In this document: in pieces, positions 1,196 through 64,000 of the stretch
How the letters are laid out: every line of letters begins with the position of its first letter
How positions within the stretch are numbered: position 1 is the stretch's first letter
Assembly (NCBI RefSeq): GCF_014673495.1
Contig: NZ_CP051006.1
Location: 6,448,001-6,512,000, forward strand
Direction: 5' to 3'
DNA: 64,000 bases
From: Streptomyces griseofuscus
GTDB taxonomy: Bacteria > Actinomycetota > Actinomycetes > Streptomycetales > Streptomycetaceae
Program-made: the position numbers and the translations under genes
Notes under the pieces: generated by a model
Told to the model about the DNA's origin: nothing
The model's database searches: none
What the model saw: the letters and a program-made list of their open reading frames with translations, nothing else

Positions 1196-2248
1196 ATGGA
1201 GACCTTCGAGAGCCTCGTCCGCGCCGAGTTCCGCCCGAAGAACACCTATCTGAACACCGCGAGCAGCGGCCTGCTCCCGGCCCGTACCCTCACCGCGCTC
1301 CAGGATGCGATGGCGATCCGGGCCGAGGGCCGCCCGCTGGACCCGCTGTTCGAGGACGTCGAGCGCGCCCGCGCCGCCTTCGCCCGGCTGGCCGGGGTCC
1401 CGGCGAGCCGGGTGGCGGCCGGTCCCTCGGTCGCCGCGCAGACCGGTCTGATCGCGGCCTCGCTGCCCGCGGGCGCCGAAGTCCTCACCGCCGAGGACGA
1501 CTTCACCTCCGTGGTGAACCCCTTCCATGTGCGCGGCGACCTCAAGGTGCGCGCCGTACCCCTGGAGCGGATCGCCGAGTCGGTGCGCCCCGGCACCGCG
1601 CTGGTCGCGGTCAGCGCCGCGCAGTCCGCCGACGGCCGGGTCGCCGACCTGCCCGCCCTGCGCGCGGCGGCCCGCACCCATGGCGCGCGCACCTATGTCG
1701 ACTTCTCCCAGGCCGCCGGCTGGCTGCCGATCGACGCGGACGGTTACGACTTCACCGTCGCCACCACCTTCAAGTGGCTGCTCGGCCCGCACGGCGCCGC
1801 CTTCCTCGTCGTCCCCGAGGACCTGGGCGGGCTGACCCCGCTGCTCGCGGGCTGGGTCGCGGCCGAGGACCCGTGGGACAGCTGCTACGGCCCGGTCGCC
1901 GAACTCGCCCGCTCCGCCCGCCGGTTCGACGTCAGCCCCGGCCTGTTCACCTACAGCGGGGTCCACGCCTCGCTCACCCTGCTCGAGGAGCTGGGCGTGG
2001 CCGCCGTGCACGCGCACGACCTGGCGCTCGCCGACCGCTTCACACAGGGGCTCGCCCGGCTGGGGCACGAGCCGCTGCCCGCGCCCGGCTCGGCGATCGT
2101 CTCCGTGCCCGGACTCGGCGCGAAGCAGGCCGAGTTGAGCCGCGCCGGCATCCAGGTGTCCGACCGGGCGGGCAATCTGCGCGCGTCCTTCCACCTCTAC
2201 AACACGGCGGCGGACGTGGACCGGCTGCTCGACGTGCTGGCCGGTTAG
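1196..2248 (+). CDS. class V aminotransferase-like PLP enzyme
   Basis: This is a 350-residue fold-type I PLP enzyme of the class V (cysteine desulfurase/isopenicillin epimerase-like) group. The N-terminus YLNTASSGLLP binds the cofactor phosphate region, and the likely Schiff-base lysine sits in the motif TFKWLLGPHG. The true reaction cannot be told from sequence. The ATG at 1196 was preferred to an in-frame ATG at 1160 because the added 12 residues (rich in Pro/Gly) are not expected in the family; neither start has a clear ribosome binding site. A TATAAG box near 1122 could serve as a promoter. A strong hairpin follows the stop. Confidence 0.78.
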   Translation: METFESLVRAEFRPKNTYLNTASSGLLPARTLTALQDAMAIRAEGRPLDPLFEDVERARAAFARLAGVPASRVAAGPSVAAQTGLIAASLPAGAEVLTAEDDFTSVVNPFHVRGDLKVRAVPLERIAESVRPGTALVAVSAAQSADGRVADLPALRAAARTHGARTYVDFSQAAGWLPIDADGYDFTVATTFKWLLGPHGAAFLVVPEDLGGLTPLLAGWVAAEDPWDSCYGPVAELARSARRFDVSPGLFTYSGVHASLTLLEELGVAAVHAHDLALADRFTQGLARLGHEPLPAPGSAIVSVPGLGAKQAELSRAGIQVSDRAGNLRASFHLYNTAADVDRLLDVLAG

Positions 2249-2264
2249 CCCCGTCGGGACATGA

Positions 2265-2308
2265 CCGGGCCGGGGCCTCCCGTCCCACACGTGGAGGCCC
2301 CGGCCCGG
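2265..2308. terminator. bidirectional rho-independent-like terminator
   Basis: A perfect 16-bp inverted repeat (arms 2265-2280 and 2293-2308, 12-base loop) lies between the convergent aminotransferase and ectD genes. It has no T run, as is common in Streptomyces, and probably ends transcription from both sides. Confidence 0.8.
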
Positions 2309-2321
2309 TGCTCAAAAGCGC

Positions 2322-3215
2322 CTACCTCACCGGGGTGAAGTCGCGCGCGCCGATGAACTCCGGTCGGCGCACCGGCGCGGCGAACGGCTCCACCGCCGTG
2401 TTCTCCACGCTGTTGAACACGATGAAGACGTTGCTGCGCGGGAACGGGGTGATGTTGTCCCCGGAGCCGTGCATGCAGTTGCAGTCGAACCAGGTGGCCG
2501 AGCCCGGCCTGCCGGTGAACAGCTTGATGCCGTGCTCGCCCGCCAGCTCGGTCAGCGCCGCGTCGGAGGGGGTGCCCGCGTCCTGCATCTGGAGCGACTT
2601 CTTGTAGTTGTCCTTGGGCGTCTCGCCCGCGCAGCCCAGGAACGTCCGGTGCGAGCCCGGCATGATCATCAGGCCGCCGTTGGTGTCGTGGTTCTCGGTC
2701 AGCGCGATCGAGACGGACACCGTGCGCATGTTCGGCAGACCGTCCTCGGCGTGCCAGGTCTCGAAGTCCGAGTGCCAGTAGAAGCCGCTCGCGCCGAAGC
2801 CCGGCTTGACGTTGATCCGCGACTGGTGGACGTACACGTCCGAGCCGAGGATCTGGCGGGCCCGGCCGACCACGCGCTCGTCGCGCACCAGGGCCGCGAA
2901 CACCTCGCTGATCCGGTGCACCTCGAAGACCGAGCGGATCTCCTGCGACTTCGGCTCCACGATGGAGCGCTCGTCGAAGCGGATCGCCGGGTCGGTGACC
3001 AGCCGGTCCAGCTCCTGGCGGTAGATCTCGACCTCGTCGGAGCCGATCAGCTGGTCGACGGAGAGGAAGCCGTCACGCTCGAACGCCTGGAGGTCGGCCG
3101 CCGCGATCGGTCCCGGTGTGCTGGGCGAACCCCAGACGACCGGATCCTGGCGCGGGACGGTCACCTCGGTGGCACCACGGGTCGGGTAGAGGTCCTTCAC
3201 GGTGGCGGTGGTCAT
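2322..3215 (-). CDS. ectD: ectoine hydroxylase EctD
   Basis: EctD is an Fe(II)/2-oxoglutarate dioxygenase that converts ectoine to 5-hydroxyectoine in the cytosol. The 297-residue length is standard. The iron-binding triad is visible as H-x-D in FYWHSDFETWH and a distal His in CNCMHGSGDN, and the DQLI...EIYRQELDRL N-terminus matches the family. The ATG at 3215 has a strong GAGGAGGTG ribosome binding site that overlaps the ectC stop region; only 6 bases separate the two genes, so it is the last gene of ectABCD. 5-Hydroxyectoine is the heat-protective form of this compatible solute. Confidence 0.95.
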   Translation of the reverse strand: MTTATVKDLYPTRGATEVTVPRQDPVVWGSPSTPGPIAAADLQAFERDGFLSVDQLIGSDEVEIYRQELDRLVTDPAIRFDERSIVEPKSQEIRSVFEVHRISEVFAALVRDERVVGRARQILGSDVYVHQSRINVKPGFGASGFYWHSDFETWHAEDGLPNMRTVSVSIALTENHDTNGGLMIMPGSHRTFLGCAGETPKDNYKKSLQMQDAGTPSDAALTELAGEHGIKLFTGRPGSATWFDCNCMHGSGDNITPFPRSNVFIVFNSVENTAVEPFAAPVRRPEFIGARDFTPVR

Positions 3216-3221
3216 GGTCGC

Positions 3222-3632
3222 TCACACCTCCTCGGGCTCGGGCTCCGTGAGCAGCGGGTAGACGCCGTTCTCGTCGTGGTCCTCCCGTCCGGTGACGGGC
3301 GGGTTGAACACGCAGATGCAGTGGAAGTCCTCCTTGACACGCAGCGTGTGCCGCTCGTGCCCGTTCAGGAGGTACATGGTGCCGGGCGTGATGGTGTACG
3401 TCTTCCCGGTCTCGCGGTCGGTCAGTTCGGCCTCGCCCCGGGTGCAGACGACGGCCTCGATGTGGTTGGCGTACCACATCTGGGTCTCGGTCCCCGCGTA
3501 CAGGATGGTCTCGTGCACGGAGAAGCCGACCCGCTCCTTGGCCAGGACGATGCGCTTGCTCTCCCAGGTGCCCGACTTCGACTTGATGTGCCGGTCGGTG
3601 CCTTCGATGTCCTTGAACGATCGGACGATCAC
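3222..3632 (-). CDS. ectC: L-ectoine synthase EctC
   Basis: EctC closes N-gamma-acetyl-diaminobutyrate to the cyclic compatible solute ectoine, the last step of ectoine synthesis. The 136-residue cupin protein starts [15 protein letters not shown] and contains the conserved [18 protein letters not shown] strand pair and the [18 protein letters not shown] segment typical of EctC. The GTG start at 3632 follows AGGAGGAAG. It lies between ectB (54-base gap) and ectD (6-base gap). Confidence 0.96.
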
Positions 3633-3686
3633 GGTGGTGCTTCCTCCTGGTCGGACGTTGCGGTCAGACGGTGTGCTTCAGATGGT

Positions 3687-4958
3687 TCAGACGGTTTCCC
3701 GGACGGCGCGGGCGAGGATGCTCAGCCCCTCGTCCAGCTCGTCGGGGGTGATGGTCAGGGCCGGCAGCAGCTTGACGACCTCGCTCTCCGGCCCCGAGGT
3801 CTCGATGAGCAGGCCCAGCTCGAAGGCCCGCCGCGCGATGCGCCCGGCCCGGGCCTTGTCGTGGAACTCCATGCCCCACACCAGCCCGCGCCCGCGGTAC
3901 TCCTTGACGTCGGCGAGGTTCTCCTCGGTGATGGAGATCAGTGCCTGCTCGACCTGCTCGCCGCGGGTCCGGGTCTGCTTCTCCATGGCCGAGCCGTCGG
4001 TCCAGTACGCCTCCAGGGCCGCGGCGGCGGTGACGAACGCGGGGTTGTTGCCGCGGAAGGTGCCGTTGTGCTCGCCCGGCTCCCAGACGTCCAGCTCGGG
4101 CCGGAACAGGCACAGCGACATCGGCAGGCCGTAGCCGCTGATGGACTTCGACACCGTGACGATGTCGGGGGTGATCCCGGACTCCTCGAAGGAGAAGAAG
4201 GCGCCGGTACGGCCGCAGCCCATCTGGATGTCGTCGACGATCAGCAGCATGTCCTGCCGCTCGCACAGCTCCTTGAGCGCGCGCAGCCACTCGGGCCGGG
4301 CCACATTGATGCCGCCCTCGCCCTGCACGGTCTCCACGATCACCGCGGCGGGCTTGTTCAGACCGGAGCCCTGGTCCTCCAGCAGCCGCTCGAACCACAG
4401 GAAGTCCGGGACGGTGCCCTCGAAGTAGTTGTCGAACGGCATCGGGGTGCCGTGCACCAGCGGGATGCCGGCGCCGGCCCGCTTGAAGGCGTTGCCGGTC
4501 ACCGCGAGCGAGCCGAGGGACATGCCGTGGAAGGCGTTGGTGAAGGACACGATGGCCTCGCGGCCCTTCACCTTCCGGGCCAGCTTCAGCGCCGACTCCA
4601 CGGCGTTGGTGCCGGTCGGGCCCGGGAACATGACCTTGTACGGCAGGTCGCGCGGGCGCAGCACCAGGTTCTGGAAGGTCTCCAGGAAGCGGCGCTTGGC
4701 CGTGGTCGACATGTCCAGGCCGTGGGTGACACCGTCCCGGGACAGGTAGTCGATCAGCGCCCGTTTGAGTACCGGGTTGTTGTGGCCGTAGTTGAGTGAT
4801 CCGGCCCCGGCGAAGAAGTCGAGGTAGGCATGGCCGTCCTCGTCGTACATCCGGCTGCCCTGCGCGCGGTCGAACACGGTGGGCCAGCCGCGGCAGTAGC
4901 TGCGCACCTCGGACTCGAGGGTCTCGAAGACGCTGAGGTCGGGCTGGGTGATGGTCAC
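3687..4958 (-). CDS. ectB: diaminobutyrate-2-oxoglutarate transaminase EctB
   Basis: EctB is a PLP aminotransferase that makes L-2,4-diaminobutyrate from aspartate semialdehyde and glutamate, the entry step of ectoine synthesis. The 423-residue protein shows the class III pattern: GPTGTNAVESALKLAR for phosphate binding, the IVDDIQMGCGRTG aspartate region, and the catalytic lysine in VTVSKSISGYGLPM. The GTG at 4958 lies 13 bases downstream of the ectA stop codon behind GAGGAG, so the two genes are probably translated from one mRNA. Confidence 0.96.
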   Translation of the reverse strand: MTITQPDLSVFETLESEVRSYCRGWPTVFDRAQGSRMYDEDGHAYLDFFAGAGSLNYGHNNPVLKRALIDYLSRDGVTHGLDMSTTAKRRFLETFQNLVLRPRDLPYKVMFPGPTGTNAVESALKLARKVKGREAIVSFTNAFHGMSLGSLAVTGNAFKRAGAGIPLVHGTPMPFDNYFEGTVPDFLWFERLLEDQGSGLNKPAAVIVETVQGEGGINVARPEWLRALKELCERQDMLLIVDDIQMGCGRTGAFFSFEESGITPDIVTVSKSISGYGLPMSLCLFRPELDVWEPGEHNGTFRGNNPAFVTAAAALEAYWTDGSAMEKQTRTRGEQVEQALISITEENLADVKEYRGRGLVWGMEFHDKARAGRIARRAFELGLLIETSGPESEVVKLLPALTITPDELDEGLSILARAVRETV

Positions 4959-59084: not shown

Positions 59085-60476
59085 TTATACGCCCTGGCTG
59101 ACAGAACTCATGTTGAAATCGGGGACCCGCAGCGGCGGCATCGCGGCCCTGGTGAACCAGTCGCCCCATTCGCGCGGCAGCGTCTTCTCCGTGCGGCCCG
59201 CCTCGGTCGTCCGCCGCAGCAGGTCCACCGGCGACTCGTTGAACCGGAAGTTGTTCACCTGCCCGGTCACCTCGCCGCCCTCCACCAGATAGACGCCGTC
59301 CCGGGTCAGGCCGGTGAGCAGCAGCGTCGCCGGGTCGACCTCGCGGATGTACCACAGGCAGGTCAGCAGCAGCCCGTGCTCGGTGTCCGCGACCATCTGG
59401 TCCAGGGAACGGTCGCCGCCGTCCAGGATCAGATTGTCCGCGGCCGGGGTGACCGGCAGCCCGGTCAGGGCGGCGCTGTGCCGGGTCGTCGTCAGGTTCC
59501 GCAGGGTGCCCCGCTCGATCCAGTCGGTGGCCGGCGCCGCGAGACCGTTGTCGAACACCGACCGGTCGCCGTTCGAGGAGTGGGCGATCACGAAGGGCGC
59601 GCACTCCAGGCCGGGCTCGTCCGGGTCGCTGCGCAGGGTCAGCGGCAGCTCGGAGAGCCGCTCACCGATCCGGGTGCCGCCGCCCGGCCTGGAGAAGACC
59701 GTGCGGCCCTCCGCCGCGTCCCGGCCCGAGGCCGACCACAGCTGGTAGATGAGCAGGTCCGCCACCGCGGTCGGCGGCAGCAGCGTCTCGTAGCGGCCCG
59801 CGTGCAGCTCCACGCGCCGCTTCGCCCAGCCCAGGCGCACGGCCAGCTCGGCGTCCAGGGCGGCCGGGTCGACGTCCTTGAAGTCCCGGGTGGAGCGCCC
59901 GGCCCACGCGGAGCGGGTGCGGTCCGGCGACTTGGCGTTCAGTTCCAGCGTGCCGGTCGGCTGGTCGTGCCGCAGCCGCAGCCCGGTGGAGGTGCCCAGG
60001 TAGGTCGAGACCATCTCGTGGTTGGCGAAGCCGTACAGCTCCCGGCCGCCGGCCCGGGCGCGGGCGAAGGCGTCGCCGAGCGCCGGGGCGAAGTCGGCGA
60101 AGACCGCGGAGGAGGTCTCGGCGGGCGCGTCCGTGAAGCCGGGGTCCGCGGCCACGCCCGTGACCAGCGGCCGCGCGTCCTCGGCGGGACCCGCCCCGCG
60201 CGCGGCGTCCTCGGCGGCCCGCACCAGCGGCTCCAGCTCGTCGGCCGTCACCGCCGACCGGGAGACGACACCGCAGGCGGTGCCCTGCTGCCCGTCCACG
60301 GTCGCGATCACCGTGAGACTACGGCCCCGGGTCACCCCGTTCGTGGTGAGGGCGTTGCCCGCCCAGCGCAGATTGGCGGTGGACGTCTCGTCGGCGATGA
60401 CGAGGCACCCGTCCGCCCGGGACAGCGCGAGGGCCCGTTCGACGATCTCGTGCGGCTTGTTGCTGCGGGCGCTCAT
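59085..60476 (-). CDS. tldE: TldE/PmbA-like metallopeptidase subunit
   Basis: The 463-residue protein starts [23 protein letters not shown] and has the TldD/PmbA fold ([46 protein letters not shown]). No HExxxH zinc motif is seen, so it is the TldE partner; in bacteria TldD and TldE form a protease that degrades unfolded or modified peptides. Its ATG at 60476 overlaps the last codon and stop of a 33-bp tldD remnant, so tldD and tldE were once directly coupled. The integrative element now separates them by 3 kb. Confidence 0.93.
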
Positions 60477-60505
60477 CGACCGGCCTCCTGCGTGGTGTTC
60501 AAGAC
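60473..60505 (-). pseudogene. displaced 3' tail of native tldD
   Basis: In the minus-strand sense this stretch reads [10 protein letters not shown] then TGA, and that stop overlaps the ATG of tldE (ATGA). It is homologous to the end of tldD at 63487 (NILNTANESGRA). Bases before 60505 lose all TldD similarity, so only the last ten codons of the native copy remain at this end of the element. Confidence 0.8.
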
Positions 60506-60592
60506 GGGGCGCCCCGGCACAGGGCAAAGGGCAACCGTGGGGCGGTGGATCCGTGCAGAGAGTACCCACCGACCGCGGGGACGAGGGCCGTT

Positions 60593-61949
60593 ATGCGCGC
60601 CGAGCCGCTCTATCCGCGCTGGCGGGAGCAGATCAAAGCCATCAGTGGCTGTGCTCATCCGATTTACCTGTCCGGCTCCACCCTCACCCGTGATGCGGTT
60701 ACGGGTGAGGTGACCTCGTCTTACTCGACCGCCGGGGAGCCTGGTGAGCGGCTGGCCGTGCGCTGCCGTAACAGGCGCGCCTCGGTGTGTGAGCCCTGCT
60801 CGCGCCTGCATGCGGGGGATACCTTCCAGCTCGTTCGTGCTGGAAGGTATCCCCCGCGGCAAGGGCGTGCCCGATGCGGTGAAGGATCGCCCTCGGCTGT
60901 TCGTCACGCTCACGGCCCCCTCGTTCGGGCCGGTGCACCGCGTCTTGGGCGGGGAACGCTGCCGTCCTCGCCGTGTTTGATCCGCGCTGTGAGCATGGGC
61001 GGCGGCTCGGCTGCGGCTTGGTGCACGCCGAGGATGACCCGCTGGTGGGTCTGCCGCTGTGCCCAGACTGCTACGACTACGTGGGCCATGTGCTGTGGCA
61101 CGCGCACGCCGGGCGTCTGTGGGACCGGTTCACCACCGCCGCGCGGCGCTATCTGGCCTCGGCTGGTGGCATACCCCGCTCCAAGCTCGGTGAGCACCTG
61201 GTGGTGTCCTTCGCCAAGGTCGCCGAGTTCCAGCGGCGCGCGGCCGTCCACTTCCATGCCGTTGTGCGACTGGACGGCCCGGACGGTCCCGGCTCGTCGG
61301 CTCCGGCCTGGGCGGCAGAGGACGTGCTCTTGGATGCGGTCGAGCATGCCGCAGCGTTGACCTTCGTCACGGTGCCGGACTCCGACGCATACGGCGCCGA
61401 ACGGGTCAGCTGGGGCGGGCAGTTCGATGCTCATCCGATCCGGCCGTTCCCCGATGGCGACGTGCCGTCGGATGCGGCTGTCGCCGGGTACGTGGCGAAG
61501 TACGTGACGAAGGGTGCGGCCGACACGGCCGGCGGGCTGGACTACCAGGTCACCAGCCTGGAGAACATCCGCGCGGCGGTCGTCAACCGCCATGTGCGGG
61601 CCCTGATGGGCACCTGCTGGCGCCTGGGCGGCCTCGTGGAACTGGAACACCTCCGACTGCGCCCCTGGGCTCACAGTCTCGGCTACCGGGGCCACATCCT
61701 CACCAAGTCCCGCCGCTACTCCACCACGTACGGCGCACTGCGCGAGGAACGGGCCGATCACCGCAGGGGCGGGCCAAGCCCATGGACGGCCTGGACACGG
61801 TCACGGAATCGGCCTGGCGCTACGTCGGCTCCGGCTACACCCCCGGTGAGGCTGGCGTTGCCCTCGGGATCGCTGAAGATCACGCGCAGAGTATCCAACT
61901 GGGCAGGGAGGCACGGGAGGACGCGCAGAAGCGGGGTGAGCGGTGGTGA
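60593..61949 (+). pseudogene. repSA: repSA replication initiator, frameshifted
   Basis: RepSA starts rolling-circle replication of excised integrative elements. The reading frame is broken three times. Frame 1 has SGCAHPIYLSGSTLTRDAV and CRNRRASVCEPCSRLHAGDTFQ; the second part has RPRLFVTLTAPSFGPVHR; the third has LCPDCYDYVGHVLWHAHAG, VHFHAVVRLDG and GYVAKYVTKG; and the end RYVGSGYTPGEAGVALGIAED is in a further frame. Shifts lie near 60840, 60970 and 61771 (a single C lost). The N-terminus also looks short for the family. It is expected to be non-functional. Confidence 0.88.
60812..60857. repeat. perfect 19-bp inverted repeat inside repSA
   Basis: Arms at 60812-60830 and 60839-60857 are exact reverse complements with an 8-base loop. 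The first frameshift of repSA falls inside the right arm, so the repeat may mark the mutation event rather than a regulatory site. Confidence 0.9.
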
Positions 61950-62131
61950 GGGGTGGAAGCAACCTGCTCATGACGCCGGATGAGGCAGCCTCGGAACTTG
62001 GCGTGACGAAGCGGGTCCTCATGGACTCGTACCGGCGCTGGGGCATCCCGTTCCTCAAGGTCGGCAAGCATATCCGGTTCCGAACTCGCGATCTACGCAA
62101 CTGGGTTGAGGGGCGCATGCAGCGAGGTTAG
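61946..62131 (+). CDS. xis: excisionase / MerR-like HTH (Xis)
   Basis: The 61-residue protein is a winged-HTH excisionase of the element: MTPDEAASELGVTKRVLMDSYRRWGIPFLKVGKHIRFRTRDLRNWVE. Xis helps the integrase excise the element and bends DNA at the attachment site. The GTG at 61946 overlaps the repSA stop (GTGA), and an ATG at 61970 is an alternative. The frame is intact, so it could still work. Confidence 0.87.
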   Translation: MRGGSNLLMTPDEAASELGVTKRVLMDSYRRWGIPFLKVGKHIRFRTRDLRNWVEGRMQRG

Positions 62132-62178
62132 GCTGACGATCAGTCACTAACCAATCAACATGTGAGGGGTTAACAAGC

Positions 62179-63426
62179 GTGGCGACCATCAAGAAGGAAG
62201 ACTGCACCTGCCCCCGGCGCAAGAAGCCCACGTGCTCTCACAAGCCGTACCGGGTGACGTACCGGGAGCCCGGGGGCAGGGCAGGCAAGCCGCGACAAGT
62301 GTCCTTCAAGAAGCTCGAAGACGCGGAAGCGTTCGCGGTCAAGGTCGAGCGGGACAAGGACTTGGGGACCTACATCAACCCCAAGGCGGGACAGCGGACG
62401 TTCGAGCAGGTGTGGCACGAGTGGGTTGACGCGGGAACTCTGGAAGAGTCATCGAAAAGGAATTACCAGAGTGTCTACGACAACCACTACGGGTCCTTCT
62501 TCGGAAACAAGCCCATCGGCAGTATCTCGCCAACAATCATCCTGGACTGGGAGGCAGACCAGAAGGAACGCGGCTACAAGGAAACCGGAATCAATGGACG
62601 TAAGAACGTCCTCTCATCCGTCTTCAACTATGCGGTAGCGGCCGAGATCATCGGCCGCAATCCGTGCAAGAAAGCGAACCCCCGTAGGCGCTCGGGTCAG
62701 CAAGTAACCCCGGTCACCGACGAAGACATCCCGACCATGGAAGAGGTGCTGGGGATCATCGCGGAGGCTCCGAAGCTGATCCGCGCTGGCTTCTGGGCCA
62801 TGGCGGGCTGCGGGACGCATCCGGGAGAGTCCCTGGCACTGTCCGATGAGTCCATGGAATGGGAGCGCAGCATCCTCGTCGTGGATCACCAGGTCTCGGC
62901 CTACGGCTGCCAGGAAATCTCTGGATACCGGCGCGGCGTGAAGCGGGGCACGAAGCATCGCGCCTTCGAACAGGCGCGGAAGACTCCGGTTCCCGAGTCA
63001 ATCAAGGAGATCTTCAACGATCACATCGACGCCTTCGGGATGTGGGGAGATCGGGGCTGGTTCTTCGAGTCTCCTCGGCTGAATGATCGCCACCCGTCGT
63101 ATGACTGGTTCCTGGACCAGTTCAAGGCGGCGGCCAAGCTGGCCGGGACTCCGCAGTACACCCCGAAGAGCTTCCGGCACTTCTTCGTCTCCGAGGCCAT
63201 CCACGCTCAGATCCCGCTGTTCGAGGTGGCGGCATGGGTCGGGCACCGAACCACCAGGACGACGGAACTGGTCTACGGCCACCTCGTCCGCCGGGCCATG
63301 GACCGTGGCGCCCGCACGATGCACAACCGCCTGGGGCTGAAGCTGGAGCCCTTCAAGGGCCTCATCGTCCCGCCCTCGCTGACGCCCTCTGAGGACGACA
63401 TTGAGGACTGGGACGACGTGGCGTAG
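62179..63426 (+). CDS. int: tyrosine site-specific integrase of the element
   Basis: The 415-residue tyrosine recombinase has an SAM-like N-terminal core-binding domain (TFEQVWHEWVDAGTLEESSKRNYQSVYD) and a catalytic domain with Arg333 (PKSFRHFF), His356 (WVGHRTT) and the nucleophile Tyr366 (VYGHL). The first catalytic Arg expected in the GxRxGE motif is His214 (CGTHPGES). Four Cys/His near residues 9-21 may bind zinc. The GTG at 62179 follows GAGGGG. The frame is complete, and it ends 60 bp from the tldD stop, as usual for int next to attP. Confidence 0.9.
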   Translation: MATIKKEDCTCPRRKKPTCSHKPYRVTYREPGGRAGKPRQVSFKKLEDAEAFAVKVERDKDLGTYINPKAGQRTFEQVWHEWVDAGTLEESSKRNYQSVYDNHYGSFFGNKPIGSISPTIILDWEADQKERGYKETGINGRKNVLSSVFNYAVAAEIIGRNPCKKANPRRRSGQQVTPVTDEDIPTMEEVLGIIAEAPKLIRAGFWAMAGCGTHPGESLALSDESMEWERSILVVDHQVSAYGCQEISGYRRGVKRGTKHRAFEQARKTPVPESIKEIFNDHIDAFGMWGDRGWFFESPRLNDRHPSYDWFLDQFKAAAKLAGTPQYTPKSFRHFFVSEAIHAQIPLFEVAAWVGHRTTRTTELVYGHLVRRAMDRGARTMHNRLGLKLEPFKGLIVPPSLTPSEDDIEDWDDVA

Positions 63427-63486
63427 ATGGTTCGCTGTGATTGCGTGTCGACCAGGTGCAGACTTCGGGCCGGATCGGTCGCCCTC

Positions 63487-64000
63487 TTAGGCGCGGCCGG
63501 ACTCGTTCGCAGTGTTCAGGATGTTCACACTCCGAAACATTGCGGACGGGCACCCGTGAGACACGGAAGCGACCTGCCCCGGCTGGGCCTTTCCACAGTT
63601 GAAAGCCCCTCCTAGTACATAGGTCCGGGGGCCACCGACGGCTTCCATAGAGCCCCAGAACTCGGGAGTGATCCCCTGATATGCAAAGTCCTTGACTTGT
63701 CCCTCAAGGCGACCGTTCCGGATCATGTATGCCCTCTGACCCGTAAACTGGAAGTTGTAGCGCTGCATGTCGATCGACCACGAGCGGTCCCCGACCACGT
63801 AGATGCCCCGCTCCACGCCCCCGATCAGATCCTCGGTGGACAGCCCCGCGGGGTCCGGGCGCAGCGACACGTTGGCCATGCGCTGCACCGGCACATGGGC
63901 GGGGGAGTCGGCGTACGCGCACCCGTTGGACCGCTCGAAGCCGGTCAGCCGGGCGATCCTGCGGTCCAGCTGGTAGCCGACCAGCGTGCCGTCCTTCACC
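63487..64000 (-). CDS. tldD: TldD-like metallopeptidase subunit, C-terminal part
   Basis: The frame runs off the window end. The visible 171 residues include QRMANVSLRPDPAGLSTEDLIGGVERGIYVVGDRSWSIDMQRYNFQFTG-like sequence and end VSHGCPSAMFRSVNILNTANESGRA, the conserved TldD C-terminus. The upstream HExxxH motif lies outside. From about 63747 down to the stop the codons become AT-rich (TTT, GTA, CTA, AGG), unlike the rest. The tail therefore appears to come from the integrated element, and it keeps the protein full-length. Confidence 0.9.
   Translation of the reverse strand, partial: VKDGTLVGYQLDRRIARLTGFERSNGCAYADSPAHVPVQRMANVSLRPDPAGLSTEDLIGGVERGIYVVGDRSWSIDMQRYNFQFTGQRAYMIRNGRLEGQVKDFAYQGITPEFWGSMEAVGGPRTYVLGGAFNCGKAQPGQVASVSHGCPSAMFRSVNILNTANESGRA

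Follow-up and report, generated by a model that had tools for sequence, protein, structure and literature searches.

We analysed a stretch of 64,000 nt from Streptomyces griseofuscus (RefSeq assembly GCF_014673495.1, contig NZ_CP051006.1, positions 6,448,001 to 6,512,000 of the forward strand; hereafter the window), in which an integrative element had been proposed to be inserted at the 3' end of tldD, splitting the tldD–tldE gene pair (the original prediction). The order of genes at the locus is the one originally given. tldE (PmbA/TldD family; PF19289 and PF19290) occupies 59085–60476 on the minus strand; in element-free relatives it is contiguous with tldD and normally overlaps it. In the window the tldE ATG is overlapped by a TldD-like C-terminus consisting of the last 33 bp of native tldD (60473–60505, minus strand), the remainder of an 88-codon native tail, which contains AGGAGG, the likely tldE Shine–Dalgarno sequence, at 60484–60489. 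On the plus strand there follow a repSA pseudogene for a pSAM2-type replication initiator (60599–61950; PF20199), a gene for an excisionase-like helix-turn-helix (HTH) protein (xis, 61943–62131; PF12728, TIGR01764) and a gene for a tyrosine integrase of 415 amino acids (62179–63426). The integrase scores above cut-off for PF14659 and PF22022 and below it for PF00589 (23.1 vs 27.1 bits), and the next-best match to it in the same genome is 29% identical. Beyond it, a second tldD frame with its stop at 63487 on the minus strand leaves the window as part of a genomic open frame of 520 codons. This frame is composite: a host-encoded part (63757–64000 and past the window edge, minus strand; PF19289, NF008006 TldD) is followed by an element-supplied 3' end of 89 codons and a stop (63487–63756, minus strand), with the C-terminus ...NTANESGRA*. 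At the junction lies the core of the attL site, in extended form at 63736–63756 (minus strand), with the minimal shared core AACTTCCAGTT at 63746–63756.

Close relatives of this integrase, 68–97% identical where complete and fragmentary at L006, L084, L086 and L089, were found at 15 other loci (L001–L006, L082–L084, L086, L087 and L089–L092). With the window included, tldD adjoins the integrase in 16 out of 16 loci, which supports the proposed insertion into tldD. Duplicates on the same contigs were counted once (L014 and L081 with L001, L018 and L085 with L006, L088 with L004), short search loci (L007, L015–L017, L021, L043–L046, L072 and L074–L079) were merged with longer versions or with the window, and L093–L095, with integrases 34–40% identical, were treated as an outgroup. 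tldE lies at the far end of 15 of the 16 loci, the remaining one (L004) ending at a contig edge, and in 12 of them a displaced native tldD tail lies next to tldE, amounting to just 33 bp in the window. Replacement tail and native remnant coexist, as had been anticipated, in relatives with both ends. No tRNA gene was detected with ARAGORN in the window, in 35 related loci or in 11 larger stretches, consistent with attachment in a protein gene rather than in a tRNA gene. From these sequence comparisons we conclude that the window very probably contains a decayed member of a family of tyrosine-integrase elements that use the last quarter of tldD, in Streptomyces and one related genus, as their site of attachment to the chromosome (attB).

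The element-free arrangement was read from the 30 best matches to the tldD C-terminus in 150 Streptomyces genomes, which are not a random draw. Five of these loci carry the integrase. The other 25 are element-free, and in each of them tldD ends in ...NTTQEAGR* with its TGA overlapping an ATG, the contiguous and overlapping state that had been foreseen; the tldE match begins at this ATG in 20 of the 25 and about 80–170 bp later in five. In a coordinate survey, both genes were found in 142 genomes; one pair was on different contigs, and in the remaining 141 tldD and tldE share a contig and a strand. The two matches are separated by at most 60 bp in 105 of the 141 genomes, by 61–300 bp in 25 (hence at most 300 bp in 130) and by more than 300 bp in 11. 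Six of the wide-gap genomes hold an integrase of the type studied here (G000, which is the window's own, G036, G053, G080, G104 and G146), G048 and G137 have the element end block and both tails with no match to the window-type integrase, and G018 and G064 have just a weak match to the end block, directly upstream of tldE. The gaps of 61–300 bp are mostly 103–142 bp long, with the stop/ATG overlap kept in such loci as were read, and possibly represent longer TldE N-termini or old scars.

Comparison of the two ends of occupied loci places the attachment core well inside tldD. In loci with both ends, attL has host tldD to the left of the core and the element tail to its right, and attR (the junction on the tldE side) has the element leader to the left and the native tail to the right. 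The shared core is about AACTTCCAGTT, 11 bp, and is the same at both ends in 9 of 14 two-ended loci, with L006 and L087 carrying it as AACTTCCAATT. It lies ∼230 bp deeper into tldD than TGAACAC, the motif near the stop codon that the original prediction had implied as the crossover, and ∼270 bp before the element-side stop; that part of the proposal was not borne out. The two tails of the window do share TGAACAC, and the reported agreement at 19 of 25 bases came out at 18 of 25 in the TTGAACAC register. As judged from the alignments, this 25-base resemblance is homology between two TldD C-termini and not an att core; TGAACAC was rejected as a core on the flanks at both ends and on the divergence of the tails. 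Since the extended core occurs only once in the window (0 in 100 shuffles) and its partner is absent there, the second att site was lost.

The element side of tldD is open for 89 codons from core to stop in 21 of 21 loci, including one in a phage (see below), and it restores tldD in frame; the tails of 22 element-free loci compared have 88 codons. Mean ratios of nonsynonymous to synonymous polymorphism (pN/pS) are 0.20 for element tails, 0.08 for element-free tails and 0.17 for 13 native remnants, all 13 of which stay open. A tree was built from 56 tails, with 22 of the 25 element-free loci used and three omitted because their core fell outside the search pattern. In this tree 18 of 21 element tails, those of the window and the phage among them, form one clade (ultrafast bootstrap 100, Shimodaira–Hasegawa-like approximate likelihood ratio test 99), and each of the 13 native remnants falls with the tails of element-free genomes. 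An element tail differs from its own native remnant at 22–31% of 264 sites in 11 of 13 two-ended relatives, with lower values of 8% in L090 and 0.4% in L099; the near-identity of the two copies in L099 suggests gene conversion. The element tail includes a Cys aligned with the conserved C-terminal Cys of Escherichia coli TldD structures, which by count is the zinc ligand Cys454. In a report on the E. coli TldD structure, Cys454 is described as the third metal ligand, together with His262 and His267 (PMC5810440).

The opposite end of the element bears on tldE. In 14 of 14 copies (13 chromosomal and one phage), a start codon (GTG, TTG or ATG) lies exactly 63 nt before the core. The 21-codon leader frame that it begins is in register with the native tail and continues into the tail without a stop; in the 13 chromosomal copies it ends at the ATG-overlapping stop. 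Of the alternative frames, one is open in 2 of 14 copies and the other in 0 of 14, and neither has a start codon at that position. GAGGG, counted by eye, is found just upstream of the leader start in 13 of the 14. Two tandem copies in L084, both also with a GTG start, were excluded from these counts. Because an in-frame leader with a start codon is open in every copy counted and the alternative frames are not, we suggest that the element, besides completing tldD, re-establishes translation into tldE; it perhaps supplies tldE transcription too. The 63 nt preceding the leader are more conserved than the leader itself, with 708 pairwise differences against 1366 for the 63 nt of the leader. In the decayed loci L097 and L098, part of this conserved block is weakly matched directly upstream of tldE, and no match at an expect value (E) of ≤ 1 was found upstream of tldE in the decayed loci of the window, L083 and L091.

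The integrative element of the original prediction stood, yet as a decayed copy rather than a working one. The window has lost the second att core and the left end of the element, and of the native tail a later deletion spared just 33 bp. L097 and L098 retain a similarly short stretch. The sequence that survives in the window looks like the least that translation of tldE would require. A further likely relic of the element end is a remnant of the P arm (60538–60570, minus strand; GGTGGGTACTCTCTGCACGGATCCACC...), 33 nt long, which resembles a stretch 175–185 bp from the core in four relatives. Its local alignment beats all 200 shuffles in these 4 of 12 relatives (L082, L087, L090 and L002) and is not above shuffles in the other eight, L001 tying with the shuffle maximum. 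Compared with the intact repSA of L003 (497 amino acids, 91% identical), ∼49 N-terminal codons of the window copy are gone and three indels (+4, +1 and −1) shift its frame; repSA is also intact in L082 (497 amino acids) and gives a single-piece match in L087, L090 and L092. A 22-nt inverted repeat (60812–60857, 95% complementary) coincides with the 4-nt insertion relative to L003 and looks like a template-switch mutation. The catalytic set of tyrosine recombinases comprises Arg, His/Lys-x-x-Arg, His/Trp and Tyr. The corresponding R, FRH, GH and Y are kept in the relatives, and the first Arg is changed in the window, where codon 62818–62820 encodes His214; the 15 other integrases aligned over this position all have Arg. 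We take the replaced Arg to be a catalytic residue of this integrase family, and the change probably disables the enzyme.

Actinomycete integrative and conjugative elements (AICEs) of the pSAM2 type carry genes for RepSA, Tra, a GntR regulator, Int and Xis. The window retains a tyrosine integrase and an excisionase, its replication initiator is truncated and frameshifted, and tblastn with the L092 Tra (E ≤ 1e-5) found no match in the window or at any other tldD locus except L090 and L092. As far as its gene content goes, the window copy is an AICE-derived relic and not an AICE. L090 and L092 hold the set in full: RepSA, an FtsK/SpoIIIE-type protein (Tra), a GntR regulator, Xis and a tyrosine integrase.

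The same cassette of xis, integrase and tail occurs in Streptomyces phage Success (NC_073472.1), which differs from the window element in being a 57-kb tailed phage. Its gp12 is an xis-like HTH protein, gp11 is an integrase 87% identical to that of the window, and gp10, a 110-amino acid 'metalloprotease', corresponds to a TldD tail of 89 codons that follows a leader of 21 codons, positioned as in the integrated copies, with the matching core AACTTCCAATT. Since gp10 joins tail and leader in this way, the phage sequence, on our reading, displays attP in its uninserted state. Phage Success (two records) was the only phage in 50,697 phage records to match the tail closely; two others matched at 26–33%. 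The cassette is used by three kinds of element: a tailed phage, RepSA elements in which no Tra was found, and the Tra-bearing elements of L090 and L092. A search of IMG/VR phages for the window-type integrase gave none by single protein and, by alignment, just two 23% matches, which were not used; 11 plasmid records matched, each below 60% identity. In a draw of 392 Streptomyces genomes, 10 had a close integrase, two further matches being the 34–39% outgroup. At E ≤ 1e-58, a threshold that short remnants would not reach, 2 of 345 genomes in a class-wide draw matched (the window's own and one of the same genus), and in an order-wide draw 8 of 293 matched, one of them (L090, G570) in another genus of the same family. 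Within this sample, the integrase family looks limited to Streptomyces and near relatives.

Several loci depart from the common arrangement. In L099 (G137) and L096 (G048), inserts of ∼6 kb have the attR-side leader block and both tails with no window-type integrase match, and are possibly non-autonomous elements. In L084 (G080), two copies of the P arm and leader are lined up beside tldE with several fragments of tldD tails, which resembles the outcome of tandem insertions followed by decay. L083 (G053) and L091 (G477) have only an open integrase of the 70% type and the tail, ∼300 bp from tldE, with flanks that can be aligned across both; this integrase is perhaps old and vertically kept. In L098 (G064), open reading frames at 1954–3996, between tldD and tldE, match LMWPc, SBF and an ArsR-type HTH in Pfam, and together they look like an arsenic-resistance cluster.

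These data can be assembled into a mechanism. The integrase would recombine two copies of the ∼11-bp core AACTTCCAGTT, one in tldD and the other in attP; attP would consist of an 89-codon tldD 3' fragment preceded by the conserved non-coding block and the 21-codon leader with its start codon. After integration the upstream tldD is completed by the element tail, as the sequence of the attL side shows, and the displaced native tail would become a 109-codon cistron that starts inside the element and still overlaps tldE, so that tldE should stay translated through it. In the window this arrangement has been eroded by deletion of one att core, of the left end of the element and of all but 33 bp of the native tail. 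Since repSA is broken and the integrase change is probably disabling, the element would now be fixed and tldD would depend on the foreign tail. In its full form, to which we give about an even chance, this mechanism amounts to a two-gene repair cassette: a tail with the zinc ligand would complete TldD, and the other end would provide tldE with regulatory DNA, a Shine–Dalgarno sequence and an in-frame start. An integrase shared by conjugative-type elements and a phage could thereby split a translationally coupled operon without loss of either protein, and during decay selection would have kept the pieces that feed tldE (the Shine–Dalgarno sequence and the P-arm remnant) along with the foreign tail. 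An appreciable, somewhat lower probability attaches to a narrower explanation, that the element repairs tldD only, leader and block being DNA bound by integrase and excisionase and tldE being expressed from chance promoters. The stronger conservation of the non-coding block than of the leader, the lack of third-position excess in the leader (below), the lack of a consensus promoter near tldE and the missing block upstream of tldE in the window, L083 and L091 all fit that explanation; the start codon and open frame in the register of the native tail in every copy, the GAGGG before the start, and the weak block matches kept upstream of tldE in L097 and L098 argue for a role in tldE expression.

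Two further possibilities do away with the proposed attachment site or with integration itself. That the locus arose by ancient duplication or rearrangement of tldD, with unrelated RepSA and integrase debris between the copies and no site-specific integration, might be entertained from the window by itself, which shows one att core and a 33-bp remnant; set against the 15 other loci with an integrase beside tldD, the attL/attR pairs, the separate clade of tails and the phage attP, it is very improbable. We give the least credence of all to a crossover at TGAACAC near the stop codon: the motif is common to both tails of the window, but element tail and native remnant differ at 22–31% of the 264 sites compared in 11 of 13 relatives, and the two sides diverge again only past the AACTTCCAGTT core.

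A number of observations weigh against integration at this core followed by repair of both genes. The core has 1–3 mismatches in 11 between the ends in 5 of 14 loci (L001, L005, L084, L089 and L096), and the element-side tails are host-like in 3 of 21 (L090, L098 and L099). No match to the window-type integrase was found in L096–L099, four loci taken as element-derived, the P-arm evidence in L097 and L098 is weak (12.7 bits, E = 0.001), and one interrupted genome among the 11 with wide gaps, G037, is unexplained. On the tldE side, the 14 leader copies are related and not independent. Differences in the leader by codon position (561/348/457) lack the third-position excess expected of a conserved protein, leaving protein-level selection on the leader unsupported, and its conservation could in part also reflect integrase-binding DNA. 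Finally, a consensus scan of 60400–60800, upstream of tldE in the window, found no sigma-70 consensus promoter.

Replacement of a gene's 3' end by an integrating element has a precedent in e14 of E. coli, which integrates in icd, supplies the replaced 3' codons and leaves a native fragment of 163 bp (PMC6379469). The tldD elements likewise insert within a protein gene, carry the codons that replace its 3' end and have a displaced piece of the native gene at their far end. They differ in that the replaced end is 89 codons long and includes the expected metal-ligand Cys, the target is an overlapping gene pair, and the leader apparently keeps the downstream gene translated; host, gene and class of element are different as well. 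In the main text of an AICE survey, tRNA 3' ends are given as the sites of the vast majority of elements with tyrosine integrases, the pSLS subfamily excepted, and the word tldD does not occur there (PMC3218068); a pSLS-type element at tldD is conceivable. In the open-access literature searched, we found no report of tldD as an attachment site of an integrase or element, and no paper on a gyrase modulator with an integrase in Streptomyces or on phage Success. The nearest outgroup integrases, 39–40% identical, are those of L093 (G220:C17) and L094 (G333:C17), which lie in RepSA-Xis-Int-Tra elements. Each of these elements interrupts a phosphoribosyltransferase gene (PF00156) near codon 60–66, and the two halves of the gene are ∼15 kb apart. 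The missing part is not replaced, and the N-terminal half stops no more than a few codons away from the junction. Both groups of elements sit in a protein gene and only the tldD elements restore its end; insertion into protein genes may therefore predate repair.

Replacement of a 3' end being known from e14 and icd, what is new here is the attachment gene tldD, and the proposed repair of two genes is the unusual part. The finding adds a protein-gene attachment site to a class of elements known mostly for tRNA genes, and shows that a phage and elements of the conjugative type share one integration cassette. Together, core and integrase could provide Streptomyces with a new system for site-specific integration. 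The locus is a natural example of a mobile element that may repair two overlapping genes simultaneously, and it raises the question of how often housekeeping proteins carry a C-terminus derived from a mobile element.

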